Below are positions 1,006-31,820 of a stretch of DNA of 35,461 nucleotides, one piece after another. The stretch spans positions 1 through 35,461 of the forward strand of contig OMTG01000085.1 of assembly GCA_900313905.1 (NCBI GenBank), given 5' to 3'. A program made the translations under genes and the position numbers. The notes under the pieces were generated by a model. That model was not told where the DNA came from, searched no databases, and was given only the letters and a program-made list of their open reading frames with translations. This stretch comes from an uncultured Actinomycetes bacterium (GTDB taxonomy: Bacteria > Actinomycetota > Coriobacteriia > Coriobacteriales > Atopobiaceae). The first letter of the stretch is position 1. Every line of letters starts with the position of its first letter.

Positions 1006-1021
1006 GAAACATGGCCGTAAC
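1006..1021 (+). promoter_or_regulatory. Candidate GlnR-like half-site pair GAAAC-N6-GTAAC
   Basis: GAAAC at 1006-1010 and GTAAC at 1017-1021 are exactly 11 bp apart, one helical turn, as expected for tandem binding of an OmpR-family regulator. Actinobacterial GlnR boxes are described as alternating gTnAC and GaAAC elements with 6-bp spacers, and this pair fits two consecutive boxes. The flanking box positions (995, 1028) do not match. It lies 101 bp before the GS-like start. Assignment to the regulator at 7201 is inference. Confidence 0.4.
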
Positions 1022-1121: not shown

Positions 1122-2462
1122 ATGTCTAACGATAGGAATGTCGACTTTGTCCTTCGCACCGTGGAGGAGCGAGACATCCGTTTCATCCGTCTGTGGTTCT
1201 CCGATGTCATGGGGAACCTCAAGTCATTCGCCATTTCGCCGGAAGACCTCGAGGAGGCATTCGAGGAGGGTGTCGGCTTCGATGGCTCGGCTGTGGATGG
1301 CTTTGCCCAGCTCGAGGAGTCCGATATGCTGGCCTTCCCGGTGCCGGATACCTTCCAGGTCCTGCCGTGGCGCCCGAGCTCCAATGGCGCTGCCCGCATG
1401 TTCTGCGATGTATGCACCCCGAACCGAAAGCCGTTCGAAGGCGATCCGCGTGCTGTCCTGACCCGTGTCTTCATGGATCTCGACAAGAAGGGCTATGTGC
1501 CCTGCGCCGCACCGCGCATCGAGTACTTCTACTTCGGCGATTCCAAGGACCCGATCCCGCAGGACAATGCGAGCTACTTCGATCTCACGCCGTGGGACTC
1601 CGCCCGCGACCTGCGCCGCGACACGACGCTCATGCTCGAGCGCATGTCCATCCCTGTGGAGTACTCCTTCCACGCCCAGGCGCCTTCCCAGAATGGCATC
1701 GAGCTGCGCTGGTGCGAGGCCCGCTCCTGCGCTGACAACATCATGACCGCCCGCCTGGTGATCAAGCAGGAGGCCTTCGCGAACGACCTCTTCGCGTCGT
1801 TCATGCCGAAGCCGTTCAGCGAGACCGAGGGCTCGGCCATGTTCCTCTATGAGTCGCTGATGGACCACGAGGGCAACAACCTCTTCTGGGGTCCGAGCTC
1901 GAAGTATCCTGACCATCTCTCCGAGCTGGCCAACCACTTCATCGCCGGCGTACTCAAGTATGCACCGGAGTACACCCTGATCACGAACCCGACCGTGAAC
2001 TCCTACAAGCGCCTGCGCCCGAATGGGGAGGTGCCCTGCTACACCACGTGGGGACACCGCAACCGCTCCGCCCTGGTCCGCGTCCCGATGCACAAGCCGG
2101 GCAAGCACCAGTCCACGAGGATCGAGCTGCGTGGGCCCGATCCCACCTGCAACCCGTATCTCGCCCTCGCGATCACCTTCGCAGCCGGTGTCCGCGGCAT
2201 CGAGGATGAGCTCAAGCTCCAGGATGAGGCCACGCAGGAGGACATCACGGCCACCGAGGCCGAGCTCGCGAAGAAGGGCGTCAAGCGCCTGCCGCGCGAC
2301 CTGCGTGAGGCCATCGACAGCTTCGAGGCAAGCGACTTCTGCCGCGAGGTGCTGGGCGACCACATCTGCGACTACCTCGTCTCCGAGAAGCGCCGCGAGT
2401 GGGAGGACTACAACACGACCGTGACCGACTGGGAGCGCTCGCACTATTACGCAGGCTTCTAG
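1122..2462 (+). CDS. Type I glutamine synthetase-like protein with altered metal-binding residues
   Basis: A 446-residue protein collinear with type I glutamine synthetases of the GSI-alpha size class. It has GFDGSAVDGFAQLEESDM near residue 52, YFDLTPWD, FMPKPF, NPTVNSYKRLRP, NRSALVRVP, TRIELRGPDPTCNPYLA and the C-terminal WERSHYYAGF. The GSI-beta adenylylation motif NLYDLPP is absent. By eye alignment with Bacillus/Salmonella GlnA, four of six Mn/Mg ligands are replaced: E129 by R132 (APRIEYF), E212 by A185 and E220 by G192 (HAQAPSQNGIE for HHEVAPGQHEI), and H269 by F241 (GSAMF for GSGMH). E131 (E134) and E357 (E335) remain. Ordinary GS activity is therefore doubtful; a regulatory or different ligase role is possible. 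The ATG at 1122 follows a GGGG-rich SD at 1109-1114; a TTG at 1116 is less likely. It is monocistronic, ended by the terminator at 2486. Confidence 0.85.
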   Translation: MSNDRNVDFVLRTVEERDIRFIRLWFSDVMGNLKSFAISPEDLEEAFEEGVGFDGSAVDGFAQLEESDMLAFPVPDTFQVLPWRPSSNGAARMFCDVCTPNRKPFEGDPRAVLTRVFMDLDKKGYVPCAAPRIEYFYFGDSKDPIPQDNASYFDLTPWDSARDLRRDTTLMLERMSIPVEYSFHAQAPSQNGIELRWCEARSCADNIMTARLVIKQEAFANDLFASFMPKPFSETEGSAMFLYESLMDHEGNNLFWGPSSKYPDHLSELANHFIAGVLKYAPEYTLITNPTVNSYKRLRPNGEVPCYTTWGHRNRSALVRVPMHKPGKHQSTRIELRGPDPTCNPYLALAITFAAGVRGIEDELKLQDEATQEDITATEAELAKKGVKRLPRDLREAIDSFEASDFCREVLGDHICDYLVSEKRREWEDYNTTVTDWERSHYYAGF

Positions 2463-2485: not shown

Positions 2486-2523
2486 AGAGGAGGGATGGGC
2501 AGCCATCCCTCCTCTTTTGTTTC
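2486..2523 (+). terminator. Intrinsic terminator after the GS-like gene
   Basis: A perfect 13-bp stem, AGAGGAGGGATGG (2486-2498) with CCATCCCTCCTCT (2503-2515), has a GCAG tetraloop and is followed by TTTGTTT. Confidence 0.95.
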
Positions 2524-2736: not shown

Positions 2737-2784
2737 GAAACAGCAGCTTAACATAGTGACGATTGAGTTAAAGGATTATGAAAC
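2737..2784 (+). promoter_or_regulatory. Cluster of GlnR-like half-sites upstream of the amino-acid transporter
   Basis: GAAAC (2737-2741), then six bases, then TTAAC (2748-2752) repeats the 11-bp arrangement seen at 1006. GTGAC at 2756-2760 and GAAAC at 2780-2784 are further matches to GlnR-type boxes, but off the 11-bp register. The cluster would lie downstream of the promoter at 2670, so it could act by blocking that promoter or serve a second, unseen one. Confidence 0.35.
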
Positions 2785-2890: not shown

Positions 2891-3745
2891 ATGAGTCTGA
2901 ATCAGATGTCCCGCCGCGAATTCTTCAAGGTCTCTGGCGCTCTCGGAGGAGGTCTGGCCGCTGCCGGCATGCTGGGCGCCTGCGGCAGCTCTTCGAGCTC
3001 GAGCACGGATTCCTCTTCGAAGTCGGATGATTCCTACACGCTGGTGACCGATGGCAAGCTGACCTGTGTCTGCAATGCCGCCTTCCCGCCGTTCGAGTCG
3101 ATGGATGAGAACACGGGCGAGATGCAGGGCTTCGATATCGACCTGGCTGCTGCGCTGGCCCAGAAGATGGGCCTCGAGTCCGAGTGGCTTCCCTCCCAGT
3201 CCTTCGACAGCATCGTCCCCCTCATCAAGCAGGGCGGCAAGGCCGACTGCACGATCACGGGAATGACGATCACGGACAAGCGCAAGCAGGAGATCGACTT
3301 CACCGACCCCTACATCGACTCCAACCAGGCCATCGTCGTCCTGAAGACCGCCACGGCCAAGACCGAGGATGACCTCAATGTCGCGGGCACCCAGATCTGC
3401 GCACAGTCCGGCACCACCGGCGGCGACTGGGCACAGGAGAACCTTTCGAATGCCACCTATGTCCCGCTGGACGATGTCGTGCAGTGCCTGACCGGCGTCT
3501 CCACCGGCCTCTACGCTGCAGCTGTCTGCGACCTGCCGGTTGCCTCCAACCTCGTCTCCAAGTCCTACACCGACCTCGAGATCTGCGAGCAGATCCCGAC
3601 GGGCGAGCAGTTCGGCATCGGCGTCTCCAAGGACAACCCGAACCTCACCAAGGCGCTGAATAAGGCCTTGGCCGAGATCAAGAGCGACGGCACGATGGAC
3701 AACCTGCAGACCCAGTGGTTCGGTTCCGTCATCTCCTCCTCCTAG
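2891..3745 (+). CDS. Polar amino-acid ABC transporter, substrate-binding lipoprotein 1
   Basis: A 284-residue family 3 (HisJ/GlnH-like) binding protein. The N-terminus has a twin-arginine-like SRREFFK motif, a hydrophobic stretch and a lipobox LGAC giving Cys37 as the lipidated residue, followed by a Ser-rich linker. The ligand-site pattern of the family is visible: AFPPFE, GFDIDLAAALAQKMG, GMTITDKRKQEIDFTDPY (with the carboxylate-binding Arg), AQSGTTGGDWA and AAVCDLPVA (with the amino-binding Asp). The substrate is therefore an alpha-amino acid, plausibly glutamine or glutamate given the nitrogen genes around it. The start at 2891 has AAGGAAGG just upstream. It heads the operon with permease, ATPase and a second binding protein; a weak hairpin at 3767 may lower readthrough into the permease. 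Confidence 0.93.
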   Translation: MSLNQMSRREFFKVSGALGGGLAAAGMLGACGSSSSSSTDSSSKSDDSYTLVTDGKLTCVCNAAFPPFESMDENTGEMQGFDIDLAAALAQKMGLESEWLPSQSFDSIVPLIKQGGKADCTITGMTITDKRKQEIDFTDPYIDSNQAIVVLKTATAKTEDDLNVAGTQICAQSGTTGGDWAQENLSNATYVPLDDVVQCLTGVSTGLYAAAVCDLPVASNLVSKSYTDLEICEQIPTGEQFGIGVSKDNPNLTKALNKALAEIKSDGTMDNLQTQWFGSVISSS

Positions 3746-3821: not shown

Positions 3822-5264
3822 ATGGAGTTGTCATACGAAAGAACGCACGAAGGCAGGATGCATCTGCATCTGGGCGCCTTCCTTGCTGCCCTGATGGTGG
3901 CCTGCGCCTTTGCCTTTGCCTGCATGCCGGCAACGGCAGAGGCACTGACCGTATCGAAGGCGACTGCCCGCCCGAATGAGGATGGCGGCTCGTCGGTCAT
4001 CGGCGGCATCAATACGCGCCTCACCTGGGAGGCGACGGTCGACGAGGGCGAGGAGGTCTCCTCGATCACGCTGGCGCTGCCTGATGATGCCTCATTCGAC
4101 GATTCGAGTGCGAAGGTGACCGTCCTCGACGGGCTGACCCGCATTCCCACCGACGCCACGGCAACTGCCAATGGCAACGAGATCACGATCGACTTCGCAT
4201 CGCCGGTCGCTTCCGGATCGCTTCTGCGCCTCGAGATCGAGGGCATGAAGTTCCCGACAGCAGGCGGCGATGTGGCCGTCTCGGGAACCTACACGAACGA
4301 CGCAGGGACGCAGACCCTGGAGGATTCGCCGGCAATCACGACCATCGCGAATACGCCTCTGCAGTCTGCCATCAGCTGGCTCGACAATCAGGCTTGGGTG
4401 CAGGCATGGAACTCGGTGCCCTTCCTGAGCATGTTCCTGCGTCCGCAGTACGTGCTGACCTCCTTCTCGTCGCTCTTCTCTGGCTGGCTCATCTGCCTCA
4501 CGATCACGATTGCCTGCTACCCGTTCGCGATTATCCTGGGCCTGCTCTTCGCCTTCATGAAGATCTCGAAGCACAAGTGGGTCCGCGCCATCGCTGTCGT
4601 CTACATCAACATCCTGCGCGGCACGCCTTTGTTCCTGCAGATCTACATCCTGTTCTTCGGTCTGCCGATGATGAACATCAATGTGAACAACTATCTCCTG
4701 GGTGGCATCGCGCTTGCGATCAACTCCTCTGCCTACCTGGCCGAGATCTTCCGCGCTGGCATCCAGTCCATCCCGAAGGGGCAGTATGAGGCAGCATCGT
4801 CTCTGGGCATGACCTATTCGCAGACGATGCTCTCGATCATCCTGCCGCAGACCATCCGCCGCGTCCTGCCGACCGTCACGTCCGACTTCATCACGGCCTA
4901 CAAGGACACGTCGCTGCTCTCCTCTGTCGGCGTGATGGAGCTCATGATGTACTCCAAGAACCTCACGACCGTCACCGGCAACATGACGCCATACATGACA
5001 GCAGCCATCTACTACCTGATTGTCACCCTGCCTCTCATCAAGGTCGTCTCCATCGTCGAGAAGAATCTTGCCCGCTCCGAGACCGGTGCTGGCCCGCGTC
5101 CGAAGGGCGGCTCCGTGAAGGATGCAGCCGAGCAGGGCGCCGAGGACTCTCTTACGATGAACGCCGCACACATGGAGGCAAAGGAGCCGAGTGCTGCTGT
5201 GATCGATGTCCTCGCTGGCCCCTTCCGCTCCCATCCTGTGAAAGAAGGTGGTGCAGATGCCTAA
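3822..5264 (+). CDS. Amino-acid ABC transporter permease with fused extracytoplasmic beta-rich domain
   Basis: A 480-residue protein, roughly twice the length of an ordinary HisM/GlnP permease. Residues 10-38 look like a signal peptide or first helix ending MPATAEA. Residues about 40-205 form a Thr/Asp-rich, strand-alternating region with no helices ([28 protein letters not shown] and similar), suggesting an Ig- or SdrG-like beta-sandwich outside the membrane. The permease proper begins near residue 215 with several membrane helices. The family EAA loop [20 protein letters not shown] is at about 307-326, which docks the ATPase. About 50 hydrophilic residues follow the last helix. The ATG at 3822 has AAGGAG upstream. 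It overlaps the ATPase gene by 8 bp, indicating translational coupling. The N-terminal domain's role is unknown. Confidence 0.9.
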
Positions 5265-6120
5265 GCATCAGAAGCACACCTTGGAGATCCACAAGGTCCC
5301 CGATGCCCTGCCTGCCGACGAGGCGGCCCGTACAGCCTATGCCCACGACCTGAATCTTTCCCATCATCATTTTGTGGAAGGGGAGCACCCGATTGTCCGG
5401 ATCGAGCATCTGAACAAGACCTTCGACGGCGAGACCCAGGTCCTGCGTGACGTGAACCTCGACGTGTGGCCGGGCGAGGTCGTGGTCGTCCTCGGCCCCT
5501 CCGGCTCCGGCAAGTCCACGATGCTGCGCTGCATCAACCTGCTTGAGACTCCGACGGCAGGCCACATCCTGATCGAGGACAAGGAGATCACGGCCCACGG
5601 CACGGACGTGAACAAGCTCCGCCAGAACCTCGGCATGGTGTTCCAGCAGTTCAACCTCTTCCCGCATCTCACGGCCAAGGAGAACGTGATGATCGGGCAG
5701 ACGAAGGTCCTGAAGAAGCCGAAGGCCGAGGCCGAGAAGGAAGCCCTGAAGCAGCTCGAGGCCGTTGGCCTTGCCGACCGTGCCGACTTCAAGCCGGCCC
5801 AGCTCTCCGGCGGCCAGCAGCAGCGTGTGGCAATCGCCCGCGCTGTCGCGATGCATCCGGACGTGATGCTCTTCGACGAGCCGACCTCGGCCCTCGACCC
5901 GGAGCTTGTCCGTGGCGTCCTCGACGTAATGCGCGACCTTGCGGAGAATTCGGGAATGACGATGATCGTCGTGACGCACGAGATGGGATTCGCCCGCGAG
6001 GTCGCCGACCGCGTCGTCTTCATGGAGGGTGGCGTCGTCGTCGAGCAGGGCAAGCCGGAGGATGTCTTCGACCATCCGCAGAATGAGCGCACCGCAGCCT
6101 TCATCGGCAACATCAAGTAG
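5257..6120 (+). CDS. Polar amino-acid ABC transporter ATP-binding subunit
   Basis: A 287-residue GlnQ/HisP-type ATPase that powers uptake with the permease upstream. Visible motifs are Walker [10 protein letters not shown], the Q-loop region [11 protein letters not shown], signature [14 protein letters not shown], Walker [15 protein letters not shown] and switch His in VTHEMGF. The first 48 residues, before [11 protein letters not shown], are an extra His-rich extension (HQKH, SHHHF) not typical of the family, which usually starts within a few residues of the first strand. The ATG at 5257 is chosen because AAGAAGGTGG lies 6-15 bp upstream. GTG codons at 5248 and 5251 are possible but poorly placed. 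The start lies inside the permease gene. Confidence 0.93.
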
Positions 6121-6170: not shown

Positions 6171-6185
6171 TGGGGGGAGTCAATC

Positions 6186-7016
6186 ATGAAGAAGCAGAAC
6201 ATCACCCGTCGCGGCTTCGTGGCCGCGGCGGGCCTCGCCTTCACCTCGCTTGCTGCCTGCTCCACAGGCACCACATCGAGCACGACGGCATCAAGTGGCG
6301 ATTCGAGCGACCTGGGGCTGGTGACGGAGGGGAAGCTGACCTGCGTCTCCGATATGGCCAACCCGCCCTTCAGCTACTATGACACAGGTTCCACAGAGCC
6401 CAAGGGCTTCGAGGTCGACCTGATGGCCGCCATCGCGGAGGAGATGGGACTCGAGTCCGAATGGCTGCCGGCAACGAAGTTCGACACAATCATCCCCCTC
6501 ATCAAGCAGGGCGGCAAGGCGGACCTCGGCGTCGCGAACATCACGATCACCGACGAGCGTGCCCAGGAGATCGACTTCTCCGACCCGTATATCGACTCCA
6601 ACCTCGGCGTCGTGACCCTGGCTTCCAGCACCGAGAACACCGAGGAGGCCTTGAACCAGGAAGGGAAGAAGATCGCTGCCCAGGCTGGCACGACGGGCGA
6701 GGCATGGGCGACCGAGAACCTCACAAATGCCACGATCGTCTCCCTGGATGACCCGGTCCAGGCTCTGACGGGCGTCGAGACCGGCCTCTACGATGCTGCG
6801 GCAGCCGACCTTCCCGTCATGAAGTACCTGTGCTCCAAGTCCTATTCCGATCTGGCAGTCTCGATCGAGATCCCCACGGGCGACCAGTACGGCATGGCTG
6901 TATCGAAGGAAAACAGCAATCTCCTCAAGGCGGTGAACGAAGCCCTGCAGAAGGTCATAGACAGCGGAAAGCGCGACGAGATCGAGACCACCTGGTTCGG
7001 CGAGGCCCTCTCGTAG
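6186..7016 (+). CDS. Polar amino-acid ABC transporter, substrate-binding lipoprotein 2
   Basis: A 276-residue paralogue of the binding protein at 2891, with the same fold and key residues: ANPPFSY, GFEVDLMAAIAEEMG, NITITDERAQEIDFSDPY, AQAGTTGEAWA and AAADLPVMKY. The N-terminus has TRRGFV and a lipobox LAAC with Cys22 as the predicted lipidated residue, then a Thr/Ser-rich linker. It lies 65 bp after the ATPase gene with only a small hairpin between, so it is probably the last gene of the operon. It would compete with or extend the substrate range of the first binding protein on one permease. The ATG at 6186 has GGGGGGAG upstream. Confidence 0.93.
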   Translation: MKKQNITRRGFVAAAGLAFTSLAACSTGTTSSTTASSGDSSDLGLVTEGKLTCVSDMANPPFSYYDTGSTEPKGFEVDLMAAIAEEMGLESEWLPATKFDTIIPLIKQGGKADLGVANITITDERAQEIDFSDPYIDSNLGVVTLASSTENTEEALNQEGKKIAAQAGTTGEAWATENLTNATIVSLDDPVQALTGVETGLYDAAAADLPVMKYLCSKSYSDLAVSIEIPTGDQYGMAVSKENSNLLKAVNEALQKVIDSGKRDEIETTWFGEALS

Positions 7017-7200: not shown

Positions 7201-7875
7201 ATGCATCACAAGAACATACTCCTCATCGCGCGTACCACTCGCCACCACGACCGCATGCGCGAGCTGTCACACGCATTGGATGTGTCTACCCTTCTTGCCA
7301 CGCCAGATACCTTCAACCAGGCAATCACCTCTGGCCATGAATTTGACCTTGTCATTCTCGACGCTGTCGGCTGCACCCAGGACACCTTCAATGCAGTCGA
7401 TGCCTATGTGGTCGACAACGGCTTCATTCCCATCCTCTTCATCACGGACGAGGACAAGCTTTCATCGCTGCACATGCCGGTGCAGGGCAAGAGCGACTTC
7501 ATTCTTTCTTCGGCGGGAGAGGCAGAGTTCGAGGTTCGCTGCTCGCAGCTGCTTTGGCCCGGCGAAGAAAGTGCACCGGCCGATATCGTCACGATTGACA
7601 ACATGACGATCAACCTGGCGACCTATCAGGTCTACATCGACGACAAGCCCGTCGATCTGACGCTGATGGAGTACTCGCTGTTGTCCTTTCTGGCGACGCA
7701 TCCGTCGCGTGCCTACTCGCGCGAGACCCTGCTCCACCGTGTCTGGGGCTTCGAGTACTGCGGTGGCACCCGTACGGTGGATGTCCACATCCGTCGTGTC
7801 CGCTCGAAGGTGGGCCCGCAGGTCGCGAACCACATCGTGACGGTTCGCGGCGTCGGCTACCTCTTCAAGATCTAG
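7201..7875 (+). CDS. Orphan OmpR-family response regulator, GlnR-like
   Basis: A 224-residue transcription regulator. The receiver-like half (about 1-118) keeps Asp54 (LVILDAVG) at the phospho-acceptor position but lacks the usual N-terminal acidic pair (ILLIARTT instead of ILLVDDE) and the KP motif, so it is probably not an ordinary phospho-switch. The C-terminal winged helix (about 125-224) contains MEYSLLSFLATHPSRAYSRE, LLHRVWGFEY, GGTRTVDVHIRRVRSKVGP and TVRGVGYLF. Both this and the stretch GKSDFILSSAGEAEFEVR resemble, from memory, actinobacterial GlnR, the unphosphorylated nitrogen regulator. No histidine kinase is adjacent. The ATG at 7201 has GGGGAG six bases upstream. It is monocistronic, with a terminator at 7893. 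Position beside amino-acid transport and GS-like genes fits a nitrogen role. Confidence 0.85.
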   Translation: MHHKNILLIARTTRHHDRMRELSHALDVSTLLATPDTFNQAITSGHEFDLVILDAVGCTQDTFNAVDAYVVDNGFIPILFITDEDKLSSLHMPVQGKSDFILSSAGEAEFEVRCSQLLWPGEESAPADIVTIDNMTINLATYQVYIDDKPVDLTLMEYSLLSFLATHPSRAYSRETLLHRVWGFEYCGGTRTVDVHIRRVRSKVGPQVANHIVTVRGVGYLFKI

Positions 7876-8098: not shown

Positions 8099-9400
8099 AT
8101 GAGCGATATGGAAGGGGAGCGTCCCCCGTATCCAGGGCAGGAGGAACCCACACAGGTGCAGGTGAAGCATGTCGGCGGAAATGATGAGGGGGATGGCCCG
8201 AAGCCGCCCAAGAAGCAGGGCGGGTCGAAGACCGTGCTCGTGGCCGTCCTCGGCGGCGTGATCGGCGCTGCCCTCATCTGCGCGATCCTTGCCGGCTTTG
8301 GCGTCTTCAGCAAGACAACGGCCAAGTCGACATCCTCTGGCACAAGCCAGAACATCACGATCAATGCTGACACGGAGGATGCGACCGTGGCAGAGGCAGT
8401 CGCTGCCAAGGCCGTGCCGTCGGTCGTCTCGGTCTATGTGACGACGAGCAGCTCCGAGGGCCTCGGCTCTGGCGTCATCCTCGATACGGAGGGCAACATC
8501 CTCACGAACTACCACGTGATCGATGGCGCAGACACGATATCCGTCACGATCGAGGGCCAGAGCTATACCGCCTCGGTCGTCGGCTCCGATGAGTCCTCCG
8601 ACCTTGCTGTCATCAAGGCAGACCTCAATGGTGCAAGCGTCACCCCGATCGAGGTCGGCGACTCCTCCTCCCTCGTTATGGGCCAGTGGGTCATGGCAAT
8701 CGGCAGCCCGTATGGCCTTGAGCAGTCCGTCTCCACGGGCATCGTCTCGGCCCTGTACCGCTCCACGATGATGCAGAGCTCGAGCGGCAACACGATCTAC
8801 ACCAACCTGATCCAGACCGACGCTGCCATCAACCCGGGCAACTCCGGTGGCGCGCTTGTCGACTCCGAGGGCAAGCTTGTCGGCATCAACACCCTGATCG
8901 AGTCCGAGAGCGGCTCCAACGCCGGCATCGGCTTCGCAATCCCGGCCAACTACGCCATCCAGGTCGCCAACACCATCATCTCTGGCCAGCAGGTCGTCCA
9001 TCCCTACATCGGCCTCACGATGCAGACGGTCACCTCGGCCATGGCACAGCGGTACAACCTCGGTGCCACGAGCGGCGCCTACGTCGTCGAGGTCACCTCG
9101 GGCAGCCCGGCTGAGACGGCAGGCCTTCAGTCTGGCGACATCATCACCGCTGTCGACGACGAGTCGATCACCTCTGCCGATGGCCTGATCCTTGCCATCC
9201 GTTCCCACAATGTGGGCGATACGGTGACGATCACCTACGTCCGCAATGGCCAGGAGCAGACCTGCCAGGTCACGCTCGGAAGCGATGAGAGCCTCCAGGC
9301 TCAGCAGCAGGAGGACCAGAATTCCAATAGCGGCTCCGGCCTCTTCGGCTACGGCTATGGCAACAATGGCTCGAACGGCCTCTTCGGCAATGGCCAGTAG
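8099..9400 (+). CDS. htrA: HtrA/DegP-type membrane-anchored serine protease with PDZ domain
   Basis: A 433-residue extracytoplasmic quality-control protease. The hydrophilic N-terminus of about 43 residues is followed by one membrane helix (about 46-69), so the catalytic part is outside. The trypsin-like domain carries the full triad: His139 (LTNYHVID), Asp168 (SDLAVIKAD) and Ser249 (NPGNSGGALV). A PDZ domain covers about residues 315-395 (YIGLTMQTVT to TVTITYVRNGQ). The protein ends in a Gly/Asn-rich tail (GYGYGNNGSNG). The order is that of Gram-positive and actinobacterial HtrA proteins. ATG 8099 follows GAGGAAAGGAAGG. The gene stands alone between terminators; the inverted repeat at 7934 may control it. 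Confidence 0.95.
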   Translation: MSDMEGERPPYPGQEEPTQVQVKHVGGNDEGDGPKPPKKQGGSKTVLVAVLGGVIGAALICAILAGFGVFSKTTAKSTSSGTSQNITINADTEDATVAEAVAAKAVPSVVSVYVTTSSSEGLGSGVILDTEGNILTNYHVIDGADTISVTIEGQSYTASVVGSDESSDLAVIKADLNGASVTPIEVGDSSSLVMGQWVMAIGSPYGLEQSVSTGIVSALYRSTMMQSSSGNTIYTNLIQTDAAINPGNSGGALVDSEGKLVGINTLIESESGSNAGIGFAIPANYAIQVANTIISGQQVVHPYIGLTMQTVTSAMAQRYNLGATSGAYVVEVTSGSPAETAGLQSGDIITAVDDESITSADGLILAIRSHNVGDTVTITYVRNGQEQTCQVTLGSDESLQAQQQEDQNSNSGSGLFGYGYGNNGSNGLFGNGQ

Positions 9401-18208: not shown

Positions 18209-18401
18209 CCTGCATTCAGAGGCCTTTCGGCCCCACGTGAAGTGTGTCCAGCAGGCGCTGCGTATGTTTCGAGAATGCTTCTCTGGGATAACGAAACGAA
18301 TAAGGTTGCCGGGCTAATCGGTGATGCTCATGGGACCGAAACAATCCGTGCGTAGACTCACTTTCGAAGGCGAGAGGGAAATCACGTTAGGGAGAAAACC
18401 T

Positions 18402-21400
18402 ATGAGCGCTACCAGCCAGACGCGCACCGACGCGTGCGCGCAGGGATATGAGTCCCAGCCTCGCAGCAATGATGCTCCGCAGGGGCTCTACCGCCCCGAA
18501 TTTGAACATGATGCCTGCGGCATTGGAGCCTTGGCCCACCTCAAGGGCCAGCGTTCCCACCAGATGATAGATGACGCGCTGAGCGTCCTTGTGAACCTCG
18601 AGCATCGAGGCGGCAAGGGCCTTGAGCACAACACCGGCGACGGTGCGGGCATCCTGTTCCAGATCCCACATCGCTTCTTCCGCCGCGAGGCCCAGCGCTA
18701 TGGGTACCTCCTGCCGGATGAGGGCGACTACGGCGTCGCGATGCTCTTCTTCCCCCAGGATGCCGAAGGCCTCAAGGTTGCCAAGCGCGTCTTCGAGGAC
18801 GGCTGCGCCGAGCAGGGAATCCCCCTGCTCTTCTGGCGTGCCGTGCCGACCGACGACCACGATCTGGGCAGCACGGCCCGTTCCTGCATGCCGACGATCG
18901 TCCAGGCCTTCCTGGGCCGTCCTGAGGGCACTGCGCAGGGCCAGGACTTCGAGCGTGCCCTCTATGTATGCCGCCGCGTGATCGAGAAGAAGGCAGATGC
19001 AGAAGGCGCCCTCTCCGGCAAGATCTTCTATGTCTGCTCGATGAGCTCGCGCACGATCGTCTACAAGGGCATGCTGGTCTCCACCCAGATGCGCCGCTTC
19101 TATCCGGATCTGGCAGACGCCGACACCGAGTCGTCTCTGGCCCTCGTGCACTCCCGCTATTCCACGAACACGACGCCGAGCTGGGAGCGTGCCCACCCGA
19201 ACCGCTACATCATCCACAACGGCGAGATCAACACGCTGAAGGGCAATGTCAACTGGATCCGTGCCCGCGAGCCGAACCTGTATTCGCCGGTCTTGGGCGC
19301 TGACCTCAAGAAGGTCATCCCCATCATCAACCGCGAAGGCTCCGACTCCGCGATCCTCGACAATGTCCTCGAATTCCTGACGATGAACGGCAGGTCGCTG
19401 CCGCGTGCCGTCTCGATGCTCATGCCTGAGCCATGGGACAAGAACGACAACCTGTCCGACAAGCGCCGCGCCTATGACTCCTACCAGTCGATGCTGATGG
19501 AGTCCTGGGATGGCCCTGCCGCCATCGCCTTCACGGATGGCATCGTCACGGGCGCTGCCCTCGACCGCAATGGCCTGCGTCCGGCACGCTACTATGTCAC
19601 GCGCGACGACCGCCTGATCCTCACCTCCGAGGTGGGGGCGCTGCGCTGCGATGCGGAAGAGGTGCTCCAGACTGGATGCCTGGGCCCGGGCCAGATGCTC
19701 ATGGTCGATCCGCATGCGGGCCGCGTGCTCTGGGACGACGAGATCAAGGAGGCCTGCGCAAGCGAGAAGCCGTACCGCGACTGGGTCGCAGCGGAGACCT
19801 TGGACGTCGATGACCTGAAGCCGGCAGACTCCGATCCCTTCGAGCAGCATGATGCGAATGTGCCGCTGGTGACGCGCCTTGCCCGCCACGGCTACCACTT
19901 CGACGACGTGGAGGAGGCCATCCTCCCCATGGCACAGAAGGGGGCAGCGCCCATCGCCTCGATGGGTGCCGACATCCCGCTGCCGGTCCTCTCCCGCCAT
20001 CCGCGCTCGTTCTTCGACTACTTCAACCAGCTCTTCGCCCAGGTCACGAACCCGCCTATCGACGCCCTGCGTGAGAGCTTCGTGACGTCGACCCTGCTCT
20101 ATCTCGGCAACCACGGCAACATGCTCGAGGACATGCGCGACAACTGCCGCCTCGTGCGCCTCAAGACCCCGATCCTCACGAAGGACGAGTTCGACCGCAT
20201 CTGCGCAATCGACCATGAGGGGTTCGAGGCACGCCGCTTCTTCGCGACCTACAGGCGCGATGGCGGACCCGATGCCCTCGAGAAGGCTTTGGACGAGCTC
20301 GGAGACGCTATCGAGTCTGCCGTCAAGGACGGCGTCAACATCATCATCATCTCTGACCGCGCTGCCGATGGGGAAGTTTCGATCCCGTCGCTGCTCGCGG
20401 TGGGCTCGGTCCACAACCGCCTGCTCCGTGCCGGCATCCGCACCCGTGCCGACCTCGTGGTCGAGTGCGGCGATGCGATCACGCCGCATGACTTCGCGAC
20501 GCTCGTCGGCTACTCTGCCTCGGGCATCTACCCCTACATGGCGCATGACTGCATCCGCGAGCTGGCTGAAAAGGGCGAGCTCGGCAAGAGCGCCGAGGAA
20601 GGCATCGCGAACTACAACAAGGCGATTACCAAGGGCATCGTCTCCGTCATGTCCAAGATGGGCATCTCCACGATGCAGGGCTACCACTCCGCCCAGATCT
20701 TCGAGATCGTCGGCTTCTCCCAGGAGTTCGTGGACAAGAACTTCCGCAACACCGTGAGCCGCGTCGGCGGCCTCGGCGTGGCCGATGTGGAGCGCGAGTG
20801 CAATGAGCGCTACGACGAGGCAGAGGCCCTGAAGCTGAGCCCCGCCCCTGACCAGCTCGCAAGCTCCGGGATAACGAAATGGAGGCCCCTCGGCGGCGAG
20901 GACCACATGATCACCCCGCAGGTCATCTACTACCTGCAGCGTGCTGTCCGCGAGGGGTCCTACGATCTCTTCAAGGAGTACTCGAAGGCGCTCCATCCGA
21001 AGGGCCGCTCGATCGTCCTGCGCGACCTCTTGGAGTTCGTGCCGCTGGCTTCAGGCCCGGTGCCTCTGGACGAGGTCGAGCCGGCATCCGAGATCGTGAA
21101 GCACTTCACGACCGGCGCCATGTCGTACGGCGCCATCTCCGAAGAGGCCCACGAGTGCATGGCCATCGCGATGAACCGTCTCGGCGGCAAGTCCAACACC
21201 GGCGAGGGCGGCGAGAATCCTTCCCGCGAGACCACGCTCCCGAATGGCGATTCCAAGCTCTCCGCGATCAAGCAGGTGGCATCGGCACGCTTCGGCGTCA
21301 CGAGCCGCTACCTCATGAGCGCCAAGGAGATCCAGATCAAGATGGCGCAGGGCGCCAAGCCGGGCGAGGGCGGACATCTGCCGGGCCGCAAGGTCTGGCC

Positions 21401-23060
21401 GTGGGTCGCCGAGGTCCGTCGCTCGACCCCGGGCGTCGGCCTGATCTCGCCTCCGCCCCATCACGACATCTACTCGATCGAGGACCTCGCTGAGCTGATC
21501 TTCGACCTGAAGAATGCCAACCCGGGTGCTCGTATCTCGGTGAAGCTCGTCTCCGAGGCAGGCGTCGGCACCATCGCGACGGGCGTCGCGAAGGGTGGCG
21601 CGAACAAGATCACGATCTCGGGCGCCAATGGCGGCACCGGTGCCGCTCCACGCGACTCCATCTACCATGCCGGCCTCCCGCTCGAGCTCGGCCTCGCCGA
21701 GACCCAGCAGACGCTGCTCCGCAATGGCCTGCGCTCCCGCGTGGTCGTCGAGGCGGATGGCAAGCTGATGGATGGCCGCGATGTGGCCGTGGCCTGCCTG
21801 CTCGGCGCCGAGGAGTTCGGCTTCGCGACAGCGGTCTGCATCTCCATGGGCTGCCTCATGCAGCGCGACTGCCAGCAGGATACCTGCCCGATCGGCCTTG
21901 CAACCCAGAACTGCAAGCTCCGCAGCTGCTTCGCCGGCAAGCCTGAGCACGTTATCAACTTCATGATGTACGTGGCTGAGGAGCTGCGCGAGTACATGGC
22001 CCAGCTCGGCTTCCGCACCGTCGAAGAGATGGTCGGCCATCCCGAGTGCCTGCGCCAGGTCCCCGTGGAGAACAACTGGAAGGCCAACAAGCTCGACCTC
22101 TCGCCGGTCCTGGCCCAGGTCACGAACGAGTATGGCCGCGACATCCCCGGTGCCGAGGCGAAGCACTACCTCGACAGCATGGCCATGGACTCCGGGCTCA
22201 CGAGCACGCTCGATTCGACCCTCTTCATCCCCTATACGAAGAAGGCGCGCGAGTCGCTCACCCCGATCCACTTCCATGCGGACATCTCGAACGTGAACCG
22301 CTGCGTCGGCACGATGCTCGGCTCTGTCGTCACCGCATCGCATCCTGAGGGCCTCCCCGAAGGGTCGATCACGATCGACTGCGAGGGTTCGGGCGGCCAG
22401 TCCTTCGGCGCCTTCCTGCCGGCAGGCATCACGCTCAACATCTCGGGCGATGCGAACGACTACTTCGGCAAGGGCCTTTCCGGCGGCATCCTGACCGTCG
22501 CCCCGCCTGCGGATGCTACCTTCAAGTTCAACGAGAATGTCGCGATCGGCAACGTCGCCTTCTACGGCGCCACCTCGGGCAAGGGCTTCGTGAACGGCCT
22601 CGCCGGCCAGCGCTTCGGCGTCCGCAACTCGGGTGCCACGATCGTGTGCGAGGGCGTGGGCAACCATGGCTGCGAGTACATGACGGGCGGCGTGGCCCTG
22701 ATTCTGGGCGAGGTCGGCCTCAACTTCGCAGCAGGCATGTCGGGCGGCATCGCCTATGTTTACGACGAGCACAAGACGCTTGCCGACCGCACGAACATGG
22801 ACATGGTCAGCCTCCAGCCGATTGACGAGGATGATGCAGAGCTGATCCATAGCCTAATCGAGGAGCATGTCCGCCGCACGAAGAGCCCGCTTGGCATCAA
22901 GATGCTCTATCGCTTCAGCGATATCCTGCCGTATTTCGTGAAGGTCATCCCGCACGAGTACGCACGTGCTCTCTCGCTCACCCGTGAGGCAGAAGCCAAG
23001 GGCGCGAGCCACAAGGATGCGGTCGAGATTGCCTTCGAGACCATGAGGAAGGAGATGTAG
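18402..23060 (+). CDS. gltB: Glutamate synthase (NADPH) large subunit
   Basis: A 1552-residue GOGAT alpha subunit. It hydrolyses glutamine and transfers the ammonia through a tunnel to 2-oxoglutarate, giving two glutamates. The N-terminal nucleophile is Cys39 in EFEHDACGIG, implying removal of a 38-residue propeptide. The amidotransferase domain runs to about 430, then the central domain. The FMN/2-oxoglutarate barrel (about 840-1210) holds the 3Fe-4S cluster cysteines C1151, C1157 and C1162 (GCLMQRDCQQDTCPIG). The C-terminal GXGXG beta-helix spans about 1270-1480. ATG 18402 follows TAGGGAGAA; an upstream frame extension to 18321 lacks an SD. gltD starts 2 bp after the stop, so the two subunits are translationally coupled. 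With GlnN it forms the GS-GOGAT route. Confidence 0.97.
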   Translation: MSATSQTRTDACAQGYESQPRSNDAPQGLYRPEFEHDACGIGALAHLKGQRSHQMIDDALSVLVNLEHRGGKGLEHNTGDGAGILFQIPHRFFRREAQRYGYLLPDEGDYGVAMLFFPQDAEGLKVAKRVFEDGCAEQGIPLLFWRAVPTDDHDLGSTARSCMPTIVQAFLGRPEGTAQGQDFERALYVCRRVIEKKADAEGALSGKIFYVCSMSSRTIVYKGMLVSTQMRRFYPDLADADTESSLALVHSRYSTNTTPSWERAHPNRYIIHNGEINTLKGNVNWIRAREPNLYSPVLGADLKKVIPIINREGSDSAILDNVLEFLTMNGRSLPRAVSMLMPEPWDKNDNLSDKRRAYDSYQSMLMESWDGPAAIAFTDGIVTGAALDRNGLRPARYYVTRDDRLILTSEVGALRCDAEEVLQTGCLGPGQMLMVDPHAGRVLWDDEIKEACASEKPYRDWVAAETLDVDDLKPADSDPFEQHDANVPLVTRLARHGYHFDDVEEAILPMAQKGAAPIASMGADIPLPVLSRHPRSFFDYFNQLFAQVTNPPIDALRESFVTSTLLYLGNHGNMLEDMRDNCRLVRLKTPILTKDEFDRICAIDHEGFEARRFFATYRRDGGPDALEKALDELGDAIESAVKDGVNIIIISDRAADGEVSIPSLLAVGSVHNRLLRAGIRTRADLVVECGDAITPHDFATLVGYSASGIYPYMAHDCIRELAEKGELGKSAEEGIANYNKAITKGIVSVMSKMGISTMQGYHSAQIFEIVGFSQEFVDKNFRNTVSRVGGLGVADVERECNERYDEAEALKLSPAPDQLASSGITKWRPLGGEDHMITPQVIYYLQRAVREGSYDLFKEYSKALHPKGRSIVLRDLLEFVPLASGPVPLDEVEPASEIVKHFTTGAMSYGAISEEAHECMAIAMNRLGGKSNTGEGGENPSRETTLPNGDSKLSAIKQVASARFGVTSRYLMSAKEIQIKMAQGAKPGEGGHLPGRKVWPWVAEVRRSTPGVGLISPPPHHDIYSIEDLAELIFDLKNANPGARISVKLVSEAGVGTIATGVAKGGANKITISGANGGTGAAPRDSIYHAGLPLELGLAETQQTLLRNGLRSRVVVEADGKLMDGRDVAVACLLGAEEFGFATAVCISMGCLMQRDCQQDTCPIGLATQNCKLRSCFAGKPEHVINFMMYVAEELREYMAQLGFRTVEEMVGHPECLRQVPVENNWKANKLDLSPVLAQVTNEYGRDIPGAEAKHYLDSMAMDSGLTSTLDSTLFIPYTKKARESLTPIHFHADISNVNRCVGTMLGSVVTASHPEGLPEGSITIDCEGSGGQSFGAFLPAGITLNISGDANDYFGKGLSGGILTVAPPADATFKFNENVAIGNVAFYGATSGKGFVNGLAGQRFGVRNSGATIVCEGVGNHGCEYMTGGVALILGEVGLNFAAGMSGGIAYVYDEHKTLADRTNMDMVSLQPIDEDDAELIHSLIEEHVRRTKSPLGIKMLYRFSDILPYFVKVIPHEYARALSLTREAEAKGASHKDAVEIAFETMRKEM

Positions 23061-29606: not shown

Positions 29607-29633
29607 GAAACAAGAGCAAACAATTGATGAAAC
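29607..29633 (+). promoter_or_regulatory. Triple (G/C)AAAC half-sites upstream of glnN
   Basis: GAAAC (29607), CAAAC (29617) and GAAAC (29629) sit on one strand, the outer two exactly 22 bp (two turns) apart. This resembles the spacing of paired GlnR boxes, although the intervening gTnAC boxes are missing. A GATGCC/GGCATC hairpin follows at 29661-29683. It is a candidate nitrogen-control site, 97-123 bp before the start. Confidence 0.3.
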
Positions 29634-29660
29634 AAAGCTGGGGTACTCTTTAGAGCATCA

Positions 29661-29729: not shown

Positions 29730-31820
<2,091 letters not shown>

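Follow-up and report, generated by a model that had tools for sequence, protein, structure and literature searches.

Why would a bacterium that carries a complete glutamine synthetase (GS) keep a second, GS-like protein from which most of the catalytic metal ligands are missing? This question is raised by the gene at 1122-2462 (+) in a 35,461-nucleotide stretch of DNA (contig OMTG01000085.1; here, the window) from an uncultured member of the Atopobiaceae. A sequence-only reading had described its product, here GS-A, as a full-length, unbroken protein that aligns end to end with type I GS (GS-I) and lacks four of the six metal ligands. All of this held up. The reading frame is open along its full length and covers both GS Pfam domains (PF03951 and PF00120, the beta-grasp and catalytic domains), and the protein aligns over its whole length with GlnA of Methanosarcina mazei (E 2e-115). 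Against the GlnA equivalog model TIGR00653 it scores 390.8 bits, below the curated 429.15. The top solved-structure match to an AlphaFold2 model built with 51 homologues (pLDDT 88.4, pTM 0.91) is M. mazei GS with Met-Sox-P/ADP (8tfk, TM 0.92).

Alignment with the M. mazei enzyme identifies the four replaced ligands as E129 (now R132), E212 (A185), E220 (G192) and H269 (F241), leaving only E131 (E134) and E357 (E335) in place. Further changes affect H210 (F183), H271 (Y243) and N264 (E236), and the glutamine-feedback residue R62 is Q63. One possibility is that re-alignment would restore the ligands. The structure-guided comparison that the earlier reading had put forward as a check retains the substitutions, with no conserved acidic or histidine replacement nearby, and this explanation was rejected. 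Judged by its residues, GS-A is very likely a pseudoenzyme.

To place these losses among relatives, we compared homologues from across the Coriobacteriia, as had also been proposed earlier. In the family of the window, Atopobiaceae (f1, with named loci from Olsenella and Atopobium), and in its sister family (f10), E212, E220 and H269 are absent from all 67 sampled full-length members (43/43 and 24/24, respectively), such that loss at these positions is fixed. Of the four losses, that of E129 is the least consistent: 31 of the 67 sequences retain glutamate there, and most others have lysine or arginine. Other families of the same order keep E212, E220 and H269, with a few changing E129 or E357, and all six ligands are present in GS copies from the class's other orders. 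When a tree was built without the ligand columns, the 38 ligand-deficient rows formed one clade, and the loss is counted as a single change; in a carefully built tree of a 58-row subset, support for this clade was 100/100.

The GS-A gene is under purifying selection, with a genus-level dN/dS of 0.09 to 0.11. Together with ligand loss in all 67 sequences, this value indicates that neither chance nor sequencing error accounts for the substitutions, and together with recurrence in the families it marks GS-A as a maintained protein. The four missing catalytic ligands might by themselves suggest a decaying pseudogene or a sequence artefact. However, the frames are full-length in dozens of independent genomes, dN/dS is about 0.1 and the promoter box (below) is conserved, which rules out decay or artefact and gives this explanation practically no chance of being correct. 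The earlier view of a conserved, intact pseudoenzyme, rather than one in simple decay, is thus strongly supported. In one relative, a partial GS-A copy (G026:C1:806509-808745; L101 1010-3240) lies immediately before the complete one, with a further copy on contig C16; this arrangement points to a tandem duplication in which one of the copies is broken or has been misassembled.

The earlier reading had also suggested a ligase with a new mechanism; could GS-A be such an enzyme, working without metal or on a new substrate? The active-site arginines are 99.6% kept in the ligand-deficient clade, and D50, E131 and E357 are retained as well, all of which would suit such an enzyme. Against this, both metal sites, n1 and n2, are dismantled, and their replacements are varied, small or aromatic residues (A/S/G/D/T, G/A/V/S/C and F/M/Y/L/R/P). 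No new conserved ligand was found in their place among the f1 and f10 sequences. Of 175 columns that are invariant in catalytic copies, only 4 have become fixed for a different residue, and no metal ligand is among these 4. Because the ligands of both sites are gone and a conserved acidic or histidine replacement is absent, a new-mechanism ligase is unsupported, and we consider it very improbable. In another family (f3), two GS-A sequences (L053 and L057, from G038 and G046) carry E129A/T and E357D but keep E212, E220 and H269; activity may have been lost here a second time, by an independent route.

The complete glnN gene noted earlier some 27 kb away is indeed present, at 29730-31820 (27.3 kb from the GS-A gene). 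Its product can be aligned throughout its length, including the catalytic motifs, with Bacteroides GS-III (3o6x), and the genes for GS-A and GlnN are the only two Gln-synt_C genes in this 2.78-Mb, 100% complete genome. We also considered GS-A as a hetero-oligomer partner of a catalytic GS-I subunit, and rejected this since the genome has no other GS-I, only GlnN. Type III GS was detected in 57 of 60 relatives. Five relatives (G010, G028, G038, G049 and G057) have two GSIII_N (GlnN-type) genes each.

The features of the locus are collected in Table 1. Downstream of the GS-A gene lies a regulator gene, at 7201, whose best sequence matches in the PDB (8hig, 8hih and 8hml) are the GlnR proteins of Saccharopolyspora erythraea and Mycobacterium tuberculosis. 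Its OmpR-type DNA-binding domain is closest to GlnR and is the only domain that Pfam recognizes, with no match to the Pfam receiver domain. In an alignment of orthologues, the receiver region lacks the acidic pair and the conserved lysine, and the phospho-acceptor aspartate is not conserved. The protein ends directly past its DNA-binding domain. It is an actinobacterial GlnR with a pseudo-receiver.

Table 1. Features of the GS-A/GlnR locus and of other nitrogen-related genes in the window.
Position	Strand	Feature	Remark
1006..1021	+	GlnR box GAAACATGGCCGTAAC, perfect GNAAC-n6-GNAAC	~100 bp before GS-A start
1122..2462	+	GS-A, GS-I-like pseudoenzyme (probable), 446 aa	metal ligands E129/E212/E220/H269 replaced (R132, A185, G192, F241)
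1515..1517	+	codon of R132	Salmonella E129 position
1674..1676	+	codon of A185	E212 position
1695..1697	+	codon of G192	E220 position
1842..1844	+	codon of F241	H269 position
2486..2515	+	terminator-like hairpin after GS-A gene	pattern match only
2737..2752	+	GlnR-box-like site before amino-acid ABC transporter genes	1 mismatch
2891..3745	+	ABC transporter substrate-binding protein (glutamine/polar amino acid type)	conserved neighbourhood
3825..5264	+	ABC permease with N-terminal extension	
5248..6120	+	ABC ATPase (GlnQ-like)	
6183..7016	+	second substrate-binding protein	
7201..7875	+	GlnR, OmpR-type regulator with pseudo-receiver	partner gene of GS-A
18266..18281	-	GlnR-box-like site before gltB	1 mismatch
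18399..23060	+	gltB (glutamate synthase large subunit)	likely GlnR target
29607..29635	+	weak GlnR-box-like repeat before glnN	
29730..31820	+	glnN, intact type III GS	genome's only other GS

GS-A and GlnR travel together. Among the 60 relatives, both are present in 49 and both absent in 11 (Fisher P=3e-12, uncorrected for phylogeny, with some of the 11 being incomplete genomes); four relatives have the two genes on different contigs. Sampling across the class gave 66 GlnR genes, of which 65 follow GS-A in the same orientation, at a distance of 19-304 bp or, in eight genomes, 2.7-4.8 kb, and the second, unlinked GS-I of other orders (GS-B) is never near GlnR. The pairing also occurs in six genomes outside the class that match GlnR strongly, where a GS gene lies 126-282 bp before the GlnR gene.

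A de novo motif search upstream of the f1 GS-A genes returned GaAAC-n6-GaAAC, which is the published GlnR box as given in Table 2 of PMC10704036. A perfect GNAAC-n6-GNAAC is found upstream of GS-A in 30/42 f1 promoters, 20/26 f10 promoters and 19/20 promoters of this copy in other orders, compared to less than 1% of shuffles. Within the window, the four highest-scoring PWM hits lie ahead of GS-A, gltB, the ABC transporter genes and glnN; the GS-A site, itself part of the PWM training set, ranks top. As a group, the glnN promoters from 20 relatives outscore both shuffles (P=1.7e-7) and random windows, and the box before this genome's own glnN is weak and degenerate. One-mismatch boxes are not above a reversed-pattern control genome-wide (50 versus 91), and within the window the loose pattern occurs at chance level. 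Because of this lack of genome-wide enrichment, only promoter-placed boxes were used. Since the terminator-like hairpin separates the GS-A gene from the next genes, they need not be co-transcribed here, and GS-A probably has its own transcript in this genome.

These targets raise the question as to whether GS-A acts directly on the transporter, GlnN or GOGAT as a protein partner, with its GlnR linkage reflecting co-regulation only. In most f1 genomes, the genes of the amino-acid ABC transporter separate GS-A from GlnR, and all three systems seem to be GlnR targets, going by the PWM hits in the window. However, reduced genomes that have dropped the transporter still have GS-A adjoining GlnR (L034, L037, L038, L112 and L114), the two are adjacent without a transporter in other orders, and GlnN persists in four genomes that lack both GS-A and GlnR (G009, G034, G040 and G056). 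We therefore judge such a partnership improbable. A functional tie between GS-A and GlnR themselves is, by comparison, very likely.

What might GS-A report to GlnR? The GS of M. mazei and that of Methanothermococcus bind 2-oxoglutarate (2-OG) between subunits, through residues F24, R26, S38, R87, R172, R173 and S189 in M. mazei numbering (PMC11957540, PMC10799026). GS-A holds all seven (F21, R23, S35, R84, R165, R166 and S182). Compared with intact copies, the ligand-deficient clade has a weighted identity of 90% at the 2-OG site versus 39% at the metal ligands, with R26 or R87 changed in a few members. In GS-B, R26 is histidine in 15/15 sequences and R173 is lysine, serine or glycine in 15/15, which indicates that the fold by itself does not depend on these two residues. 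The residue that locks GS in its glutamine-inhibited form, R62 (PMC10799026), remains arginine in 2/43 f1 and 0/24 f10 members and is otherwise mostly P/S/T/A. Retention of the 2-OG site together with loss of R62 in nearly the whole clade favours 2-OG over glutamine. In addition, GlnR is described as an activator of nitrogen genes under limitation (PMC10704036), and 2-OG, which is high in nitrogen starvation, fits such a role. Compared with conserved columns in general, retention of the site stands out only moderately (permutation P=0.033), and GlnR-linked GS proteins outside the class keep the whole site in four of six cases, with parts missing in L281 and L282, both of one other family. For these reasons, the residues make 2-OG a candidate ligand of GS-A at slightly short of even odds. 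In G042 (L063, L284), neither GlnN nor GlnR was detected; its GS keeps all six metal ligands and has changes in the 2-OG site (R26K, S38A and R87D), the reverse of the GS-A pattern.

Alternatively, GS-A may be a catalytically dead GlnR sensor that reads another metabolite (glutamine, glutamate or ATP/ADP) in the arginine-rich former active site, much as feedback-inhibited GS serves GlnR/TnrA in Firmicutes. R321, R339, R344 and R355 are kept throughout the clade, as is R359 bar one sequence, and the Firmicutes GS binds GlnR in its glutamine-bound form (PMC9249791). The near-complete loss of R62 argues against this option, as do the loss of N264 and H269 and the frequent loss of E327; we consider it rather unlikely.

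The retention of a dead GS-A beside GlnR across two families suggests that it survives as a gut bacterium's nitrogen sensor. We slightly favour the interpretation that GS-A has been kept as a metabolite-sensing subunit, probably for 2-OG, that informs GlnR, and we lean somewhat more firmly towards direct signalling from one protein to the other, which would involve contact between them. The earlier proposal of a nitrogen sensor or GlnR partner is supported by the linkage, the co-loss, the GlnR boxes, the pseudo-receiver and the retained 2-OG site. Its comparison with Bacillus fares less evenly. The GlnR and TnrA proteins of Firmicutes belong to the MerR family. Because the regulator at 7201 is OmpR-type, the analogy holds in its logic and not in homologous parts; the idea of a sensor stands, while the retained residues point to 2-OG rather than to glutamine.

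In the Firmicutes circuit, GS binds the C-terminal tails of GlnR and TnrA in its active site (PMC9249791). Both systems tie a GS-I protein to a regulator as a nitrogen sensor, with the genes as neighbours. However, the Firmicutes GS is a working enzyme that signals glutamine through R62, whereas GS-A appears dead and has lost R62, and the regulator here is an OmpR-type pseudo-receiver protein without a GS-binding C-terminal tail. The 2-OG-activated GS enzymes of archaea (M. mazei GlnA1, PMC11957540; M. thermolithotrophicus GS, PMC10799026) are the closest solved structures and share the 2-OG residues; they are active enzymes switched on by 2-OG, whereas GS-A has no catalytic metal site. The regulator at 7201 resembles actinobacterial GlnR (8hig, 8hih and 8hml; PMC10704036) in DNA-binding domain, box and pseudo-receiver. 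The part of that review drawn on here makes no mention of a GS partner and calls the GlnR signal, and any kinase, unknown (PMC10704036). Lengsin, a pseudo-GS of the vertebrate lens, is likewise a GS-I descendant without catalytic activity and keeps the dodecamer (PMC2667176), but it is eukaryotic and has a structural lens role without a link to a transcription regulator.

How could such a sensor work? GS-A may still assemble the GS ring, with 2-OG, as the nitrogen-starvation signal, bound in the retained allosteric site between subunits. The ligand-dependent state of the ring would then bind or release GlnR and so set its DNA binding, and active GlnR would raise GS-A itself, the amino-acid ABC transporter, GOGAT and GlnN. 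GS-A need not be the sole nitrogen sensor, since P-II is present in this genome and in about half of the relatives. This patchy presence also led us to reject the absence of P-II as the reason for a new sensor.

With respect to its history, a GlnR-linked GS-A and GS-B would have coexisted in the class ancestor. Members of the window's order no longer show GS-B alongside GS-A, and nearly all have GlnN. GS-A would then have lost R62, N264 and finally, a single time in the ancestor of f1 and f10, the metal sites, while keeping its link to GlnR, its promoter box, the pocket rich in arginines and the 2-OG site. As a tentative scheme that we hold at somewhat less than even odds, GlnR of Coriobacteriia would be under a dedicated GS-derived 2-OG sensor, in a class-wide GS-A/GlnR module from which catalysis was later discarded in two families once GlnN supplied GS activity.

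Among the papers searched, none treated GlnR and glutamine synthetase together with Coriobacteriia or Collinsella, or glnA with Olsenella. The signal for actinobacterial GlnR and the switching of pseudo-receiver regulators are described as unsolved in recent reviews (PMC10704036, PMC12632262), and the GS-A/GlnR pair is well suited to a clean test of both. If GS-A is without catalysis, as its residues suggest, whatever it does to GlnR could not arise secondarily from glutamine synthesis. If true, a bacterium would here have converted an essential metabolic enzyme entirely into a sensor, sister lineages would still hold the intact intermediate forms, and the pair would amount to a system akin to two-component ones, built from a pseudoenzyme and a pseudo-receiver.

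Two further observations concern the neighbouring genes. The permease of the ABC transporter has an N-terminal extension of ~190 residues, comprising a signal-like segment and a beta-rich region, before its transmembrane part. Across f1 and f10, GlnR is followed by a gene for an HtrA-like protease (8099-9400 in the window).
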